Source of the DNA: Planctomycetia bacterium
GTDB taxonomy: Bacteria > Planctomycetota > Phycisphaerae > Phycisphaerales > SM1A02
DNA length: 59,994 nucleotides
Direction: 5' to 3'
Assembly: GCA_005790565.1 (NCBI GenBank)
Contig: SXUJ01000159.1
Coordinates: 1 to 59,994 of the forward strand
The notes below the pieces were generated by a model. That model saw nothing but the letters and a program-made list of their open reading frames with translations, made no database searches and was not told where the DNA came from. The translations under genes were made by a program, and so were the position numbers. How positions within the stretch are numbered: position 1 is the stretch's first letter; the number at the start of each line of letters is the position of its first letter. Of the stretch, positions 33,909-35,100 are shown piece by piece.

Positions 33909-35025
33909 TCAACTCTTCAGATCGCGCTCGGTGCGCCGCCGTTTCAGTTCGGCGTCGATGAATCCCCAGAGTGCGCCGTTGAGCACGGACATCGGATTCC
34001 CGACCTCATGGCCGGTGCGATGGTCTTTCACGCGATTGTCGTAGAAGACATAGCTGCGGATCTGGTTGCCCCAATCTCGCGTCACTTTGCCCCCCGTGGC
34101 GGCGCTGATCTCTGCGGTGCGGCGTTCTTCCTCGAGTTGTTCGAGTTTTGCCCGTAGCACAGTGAACGCTTGCTTGCGATTCTGCGGTTGTTCGCGATAG
34201 GTACTCGCGACCACTTGGATTCCCGTGGGAATGTGCGTGAGGCGAATCGCGCTGGCGACCTTGTTCACATTCTGGCCGCCCGGACCACTCGCGCGCACGA
34301 AGGGAGTGATTTCCACATCCTTCTCGGGAATCTCAAGATCCGTCTCCTCAAACTCGGGAGTCACATCGACGGTTGCGAAACTGGTTTGGCGTTTGCCTTC
34401 CGCGTTGAACGGCGAAACGCGCGCGAGTCGGTGCGTTCCGCGTTCGCAACTGAGGTAGCCATACGCAAAGAGGCCGGTGATGCGATAGCCAACCTCGGAA
34501 ACGCCCGCCTCGGCTCCGGCATTGCGGTGTAACTCTTCTACCTTCCAGCCCATCTCTTCAAAGAAGTAGAGGTACATGCGCTCAAGCATGCCGGCCCAAT
34601 CTTCGGCTTCGGTTCCGCCTGCACCCGCCTGAATGGTGAAGAAGCAATTGCGGTGGTCATGTTTGGCGCCGAGAAGCGATTGCTGTTCGACCTTGTCCAT
34701 CTGCGCAAGCAGTTTGAAAAGCGACTCGTCCACCTCCTTGAGGAGCGCCTTGTCGTTCCCCTCCTTGGCGAGTTCGTAGCCCACTTGTGCGTCTTCGAAC
34801 TCGCGCATCACGGCTTCGAGTGGCTCGATCTGTGCGCGCACAACCTTCAATGCATCGATCGTTTTCTGCGCTTCTTTCTGGTTGCTCCAGAAGTCCTCTG
34901 CACTCAGACGATCATTGAGCAGTCGCCTCGTCTCGGCCTTGCCATCGAAGTTAAAGAGAGTCGCGAATCGTCAAAATCCGCGCCTCAAGATCCTGGAGAA
35001 TGGGTTGGTGAGCGTCGAAATGCAT
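33909..35025 (-). CDS. prfB: Peptide chain release factor 2, programmed +1 frameshift at 34956-34950
   Basis: GGQ loop (RASGPGGQNVNK), SPF motif (HRLARVSPFNAEGK); N-terminal part MHFDAHQPILQDLEARILTIRDSL ends at in-frame TAA, +1 shift restores NFDGKAETRRLL...DFWSNQKEAQK. Confidence 0.9.
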
Positions 35026-35100
35026 GGGTCGCGAATGCTAGCCGAAAGCAGCGCGCTTCAGTGCTGCGTCGAACTCGCGATTCCCGCTACCCTCCCTCCG

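Follow-up and report, generated by a model that had tools for sequence, protein, structure and literature searches.

A candidate hairpin stimulator in place of the Shine-Dalgarno-like element at prfB frameshift sites with UAA or UGA in the Phycisphaerales

The prfB gene within a 59,994-nucleotide stretch of planctomycete DNA (contig SXUJ01000159.1 of assembly GCA_005790565.1, order Phycisphaerales; referred to here as the window) probably contains a genuine, selected +1 programmed frameshift in which the Shine-Dalgarno (SD):anti-SD stimulator has been replaced by a refolding hairpin, and where the stop codon may be either UGA or UAA. Comparison of sequences reveals the frame structure and its conservation, repeated switching of the stop codon, loss of the SD-like element, and a hairpin with covariation. 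It is likely that the whole order has exchanged the SD:anti-SD stimulator for a cis-acting mRNA hairpin, and that the RF2-specificity of the stop has been relaxed alongside.

The RF2 frameshift is a textbook bacterial recoding switch, in which the SD-like stimulator and UGA have been described as nearly invariant. UAA is read by both RF1 and RF2, and UGA is specific to RF2. Prince et al. (2025) surveyed 12,753 RefSeq genomes and found the prfB motif in 64% of them. Among the 8,164 motif-bearing genomes the stop was TGA in 98.6%, TAA in 1.4% and TAG in none; the authors described the TAA sites as randomly distributed, without broad fixation in clades, and the SD-like element as hyper-conserved (PMC12421855). 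A survey in 2013 gave the consensus of the shift site as YTT_TRA_C (PMC3711429), and a 2016 review counted the SD-like stimulator among the major, highly conserved features of the RF2 cassette (PMC5009743).

The prfB locus and its reading frames

The features of the locus, numbered by position in the window, are as follows.

34951 to 35025, minus strand: zero-frame prfB leader ORF, 24 codons (MHFDAHQPILQDLEARILTIRDSL) followed by TAA, read directly from the sequence
34950 to 34956, minus strand: shift site CTT TAA C, with CTT at 34956-34954, TAA at 34953-34951 and C at 34950
33909 to 34952, minus strand: main prfB ORF in the +1 frame, encoding RF2 with the SPF and GGQ motifs and ending in TGA

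The leader starts with the ATG at 35025, and the zero frame ends ...TCT CTT TAA. The +1 frame is open from AAC at 34952-34950 (AAC TTC GAT GGC...) to the TGA at 33911-33909, and skipping one base generates a complete RF2 product of 371 amino acids. The fused translation includes both the SPF tripeptide and the GGQ motif, and scores 391.5 bits against TIGR00020, where the cut-off is 370. It aligns with solved RF2 chains of the E. coli type from residue 9, and the junction is free of gaps. The sequence is therefore that of RF2 on both sides of the junction. The same genome has a separate RF1 gene, on another contig, whose product carries the PAT motif. The initial annotation had assigned a prfB +1 frameshift site with UAA at this position, and the frames, the TIGR00020 score and the RF2 alignment over the junction all confirm the assignment.

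An early in-frame stop followed by RF2 in the +1 frame is kept in 138 genomes of the order, and in 129 of these 138 the leader ATG lies 23 codons 5′ of the CTT. Instead, translation might start internally within the downstream frame, at TTG 34850 or at a non-canonical start, and give RF2 with the frameshift unused; many relatives have an ATG at codon 15 of the +1 frame that would be compatible with this. Yet reading of the ORFs in the window confirms the earlier observation that TTG 34850 is the first start codon of this frame, and that it lies 3′ of conserved RF2 helix residues. Moreover, the zero-frame peptide, its 23-codon length and CTTTRAC are conserved across the order, and the RF2 alignment runs on through the junction. 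Internal initiation is thus very improbable.

The prfB ATG has no SD sequence, either in the window (35026-35055) or at the same place in relatives. A −10-like TANNNT box (TAGCAT) is found close 5′ of the ATG, within 20 nt in 97 of 129 members of the order. The absent SD and the nearby −10-like box suggest that the prfB transcript may be leaderless in many species.

The stop codon at the shift site in relatives

We collected prfB from 242 species-level genomes and scored the shift site in each, with taxonomic groups based on group labels and record titles. The relatives are metagenome-assembled genomes (MAGs) of Phycisphaerales and other Planctomycetota from independent projects, many of them from lakes. 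The initial annotation had proposed that prfB 5′ regions be compared in this way, and the comparison finds CTTTAAC to be conserved. It occupies the identical position in 4/4 species of the genus, and occurs in independent lake metagenome assemblies too (L047-L049). The same sequence is present in 63 of the 193 genomes of the class that have a shift site, and in 59 of 138 within the order. By group, family f1 has 35 genomes with TAA, 65 with TGA and five without a frameshift (TAA in 35/100 of those with the frameshift), and the other families of the order have 24, 14 and six respectively (24/38). The other orders of the class have four with TAA, 50 with TGA, one CTTTGAG and one without a frameshift (TAA in 4/55), and the sample of the phylum outside the class has no TAA, 26 TGA and 11 without a frameshift. 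UAG was found at the shift site in none of the 193 genomes of the class with the frameshift. CTTTRAC, comprising the slippery CUU U and the 3′ C, is present in 192 of these 193. The base following the stop is not C at L321 (G205) and L190, which have CTTTGAG, nor at L199 (CTTTGAA) and L203 (CTTTGAT).

The type of site is uniform in all 23 genera of family f1 with at least two sampled species. An RF2 tree built without the residue of the shift site requires at least 20 changes between UAA and UGA within the class, and at least 10 losses or gains of the frameshift overall. Loss by way of a continuous frame was seen in family f1 (L024, L227, L032, L046 and L264) and in f6 (L128, L133, L141, L286, L289 and L299), and two cases of loss in genus 7 retain a partial relic of the stem described below.

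As the contigs are MAG-derived, the TAA might reflect an error of sequencing or assembly, or prfB might be a pseudogene. But the same base is found in 63 genomes of the class, including the single-contig G012, G130, G140, G145, G158 and G162; the site is uniform within genera, and the gene is otherwise intact. A sequencing error at the site, which the initial annotation had named as a way in which it could be wrong, is ruled out by CTTTAAC in the relatives, which refute this explanation as a whole. We regard it as extremely improbable.

UAA is fixed in genera and recurrent through the order, counter to the picture of a poorly tolerated state scattered among species. That picture was probably drawn from reference genomes that sample the Phycisphaerae group thinly. 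UAA alone is a known minority state of the prfB shift site. The earlier reading of UAA in place of UGA therefore holds for this gene but is not new, given the 1.4% of PMC12421855 and the YTT_TRA_C consensus of PMC3711429. The published TAA sites share with ours the position in CTTTAA, a stop readable by RF2 and the lack of TAG (PMC12421855, PMC3711429). They were called scattered, whereas here UAA is fixed within genera and common through the order, and the SD-like element is missing.

Loss of the SD-like element

34961 to 34965, minus strand: site at which the SD-like element was lost, with CGCGA in the window and CGGGA, AGGGA or AAGGA in outgroups

The SD-like element upstream of CUU is absent throughout the order, with CGC or CGT before GAC in every tabulated sequence. 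The outgroup orders of the class have the pattern GCC CGG AT. ... ... ATC CGG GAC TCT CTT TGA C, where CGGGA is SD-like, whereas the window's order has GCG CGG AT. ... ... ATC CGC GAC TCT CTT TRA C, which is not. The pattern upstream of CTT is ungapped across the class. Two synonymous changes are involved, CGG to CGC for Arg and GCC to GCG for Ala; these remove the SD-like run and convert a C-G pair of the stem into G-C. As read from the sequences, the SD-like run was lost and the stem pair flipped in one and the same change. An altered anti-SD was considered as the cause of the SD loss and rejected, because 23 of 24 16S genes have GGATCACCTCC intact (the 24th is unread, and none is from the window's own assembly). 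The initial annotation was correct that no AGGGGG-like stimulator is present, but had overlooked a strong stem-loop in its place.

A conserved stem-loop upstream of the shift site

34962 to 34982, minus strand: stem-loop upstream of the shift site, indicated by minimum free energy (MFE), covariation, and synonymous constraint on the stem but not the loop
34957 to 34961, minus strand: spacer ACTCT from the hairpin to CTT, 5 nt, with fixed spacing in the ungapped alignment A1
34958 to 34986, minus strand: possible lower extension of the stem, G34986, A34985 and G34984 with C34958, T34959 and C34960 across a G·A mismatch

The 5′ arm of the stem-loop (CGCGGAT, 34982-34976) pairs with the 3′ arm (ATTCGCG, 34968-34962) to form 7 bp. 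The loop (TTTGACG, 34975-34969) has 7 nt, and a U·G pair may close it to 5 nt. SD-bearing and SD-less versions form the same 7-bp stem and 7-nt loop, ending 5 nt before CTT. The 3′ arm spans the position of the SD duplex. In the window, 40 nt including the lower pairs have an MFE of −13.0 kcal/mol (z = −3.39).

The peptide Ala-Arg-Ile..Ile-Arg-Asp fixes five of the seven stem pairs. Only two pairs, at third codon positions (Ala/Arg and Arg/Ile), can therefore be tested, and the case for an RNA structure rests on these two pairs together with codon choice. Among distinct sequences of the order the two are formed in 78/78 and 77/78, where 28.6 and 21.0 would be expected from each gene's own codon usage (20,000 simulations, with maxima of 46 and 37). 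In the other orders of the class the figures are 45/53 and 44/53, against an expectation of about 18. Elsewhere in the phylum they are 9/25 and 6/25, which is at chance level with no excess. The two free pairs also change identity. In alignment A1, from which nine class sequences are omitted, most of them having no evident hairpin, one free pair is GC in 53, CG in 29, GU in 15 and AU in three sequences, and the other is GC in 88, AU in five, GU in five and CG in three. The covariation score was reached by 0 of 500 shuffles, pairing fell from 90% to 31-40% when the partner was slid, and RNAalifold, unguided, finds the helix in A1. The counts of 78/78 and 77/78, and the retention of pairs in genomes with the frameshift (below), are unselected and independent of A1.

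Codon choice points the same way. Third-base entropy, taken over 129 sequences of the order, is 0.00, 0.03 and 0.07 for the codons of the 5′ arm, 0.55, 0.73 and 0.61 for those of the loop, and 0.12, 0.39 (C or U, both of which pair with G) and 0.07 for those of the 3′ arm. The 77 downstream codons have a mean of 0.71 and a minimum of 0.30. Recoding 33 nt with each gene's codon usage while preserving the peptide gives a mean MFE of −6.0 kcal/mol, compared with −13.7 kcal/mol observed in the order; the effect of recoding is small elsewhere in the phylum.

These data bear on the idea that the frameshift is real but that the hairpin is merely a by-product of peptide and codon choice, with slipping driven by CUUU, a weak stop context and slow termination alone, and no upstream stimulator. 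Amino acids do encode five of the seven pairs. In addition, Flavobacterium johnsoniae makes little use of SD sequences yet retains a low-efficiency prfB frameshift (PMC8710568, PMC12421855), and SD signals are rare at starts here as well (11-13% versus 3-6% for the control, in simple long-ORF gene calls). F. johnsoniae is thus alike in keeping the frameshift where SD-led initiation is rare, but it has a perfect SD-like AGGAGG (PMC8710568) that is absent here. A by-product would not lead us to expect third-position pairs that covary and are kept far above the level set by codon usage, nor constraint that follows the stem and not the loop, nor recoded sequences that fold much worse. We think this explanation unlikely.

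The stem is retained with the frameshift. All 138 genomes of the order with the frameshift have 6-7 of the 7 pairs, and genomes of the class that lack it have no more than 5 of 7. That the stem decays where the frameshift is lost links it to the frameshift, and not to the peptide or a DNA-binding protein. Instead of a stimulator, the inverted repeat could be a DNA operator, an RNA element that affects attenuation or the stability of the mRNA, or, in SD-bearing relatives, a lid over the SD-like sequence. A 7-bp dyad with a 7-nt gap does resemble a repressor site, and in the sister orders the hairpin co-occurs with the SD-like CGGGA within its 3′ arm, which would suit a lid. This co-occurrence suggests that the original role of the hairpin may have been different, for example hiding the SD-like element. 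However, G·U pairs (15 and five of 103) suit RNA better than a DNA dyad, the sequence of the stem changes while complementarity stays, and the stem keeps a constant distance from the slip site. The decay upon frameshift loss also speaks against an operator or another RNA element, and a search of Rfam gave no match for the stem-loop. Roles of this kind in place of stimulation are improbable.

Within the lower stem only G34984-C34960 (pair 6-30) has third-position constraint in the order, with entropies of 0.00 at codon −10 and 0.07 at codon −2. This pair is formed in 78/78 sequences of the order and 31/53 in the rest of the class. The GAG/CTC lower stem is conserved in the order, but covariation support is limited to the one pair and we keep it only as possible.

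UAA, SD loss and the sensing of release factors

UAA is present in 62 of 154 SD-less genomes, compared with one of 38 having an SD-like run. L318 (G225) is the sole genome that combines UAA with SD-like CGGGA. SD-less lineages account for 19 of the minimum of 20 stop switches; within the class, a branch-length rate test based on parsimony and pruned trees gives p = 0.007 in favor of a link. By count the link between UAA and SD loss is strong, but the tree has about six SD changes in all, too few to give a phylogenetically paired test any power, and the link is therefore suggestive.

Use of stop codons was compared in 20 kb samples from 20 UAA and 20 UGA genomes, again from simple long-ORF gene calls. 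Terminal TGA is 73 versus 75%, and terminal TAA 14.5 versus 9.4% (p = 0.08). Usage is similar in the two sets, and does not support stop-codon usage as the reason for UAA. High TGA use has been reported alongside loss of the prfB frameshift (PMC12421855); in the order-wide samples (L359-L398) UGA makes up about 73-75% of terminal stops and the frameshift is nevertheless kept.

In these samples TAG (66) and TAA (57) are about equally common as terminal stops, yet UAG is not found at any of the 193 shift sites of the class, which favors continued sensing of RF2. The argument is partly confounded, as UAG would turn the +1 codon from Asn or Asp to Ser. Taken with the 20 or more switches between UAA and UGA, and stop usage that does not differ significantly, it indicates that RF2 sensing is probably kept. 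Most likely the circuit still senses RF2, and RF1 might add repression in species with UAA. For the altered feedback logic proposed in the initial annotation there is little indication, since UAA and UGA interchange so readily.

Proposed mechanism and its relation to known systems

We infer the slipping itself, its stimulation by the hairpin and the feedback behavior as follows. After 24 codons the ribosome would halt, its P site holding tRNA-Leu on CUU and its A site UAA C. Where release factor is plentiful, termination would occur at UAA. Where it is scarce, tRNA-Leu would slip from CUU to UUU, AAC would enter the A site and full-length RF2 would be made. The order has lost the SD-like run that pairs with the 16S anti-SD. 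The stem-loop, which ends 5 nt before the P-site codon, could refold behind the ribosome as it exits with CUU still in the P site, and would supply a strain on the mRNA in the same direction as an SD duplex. The strain would be greater if the lower pairs close (G34984-C34960 and beyond). Such a stimulator would allow either of the stops that RF2 reads, UGA or UAA, and not UAG.

There is a precedent in vitro. A stable hairpin engineered 5′ of CUUUGA gave about 60% of the +1 stimulation of an SD with 70S ribosomes, only in the absence of RF2, and less when the hairpin was destabilized (PMC6321510). Sequence comparison places a stable RNA hairpin directly 5′ of the E/P sites here too. The two share this location in place of the SD, and the +1 direction expected when release factor is scarce. 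The earlier stem was engineered with 12 bp and studied in vitro (PMC6321510), whereas the present one is natural and covarying, known from comparison of sequences, and with its 7 bp and 7-nt loop is weaker than the 12-bp hairpin.

Compared with the canonical E. coli prfB (AGGGGG UAU CUU UGA C; PMC12421855), the leader of about 24 codons, the CUU slip codon within CUUU, the stop followed by C and the +1 shift into RF2 are all shared. The differences are UAA in place of UGA, and a stem-loop where the SD-like element is absent. The hairpin in place of the SD-like stimulator is a stronger departure from the textbook cassette than UAA, and the more original feature. As judged from the sequences, what is new is that UAA, known as a rare state, is fixed in a clade, and that a conserved hairpin lies where the SD-like stimulator has been lost.

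In such genomes prfB may be miscalled or truncated by motif-based gene finders built around AGGGGG and UGA. The order would represent a large natural clade in which the textbook RF2 switch has had one element traded for an RNA hairpin, leaving the stop free to be UAA. The roughly 20 exchanges of UAA and UGA are natural replicates with which to ask whether RF2 alone is sensed, or total release-factor activity, and the hairpin offers a natural system in which to study the forward push that a ribosome receives from a duplex behind it. If our interpretation is correct, nature has re-engineered the textbook autoregulatory switch here and has arrived at a counterpart of the engineered hairpins that mimic an SD.
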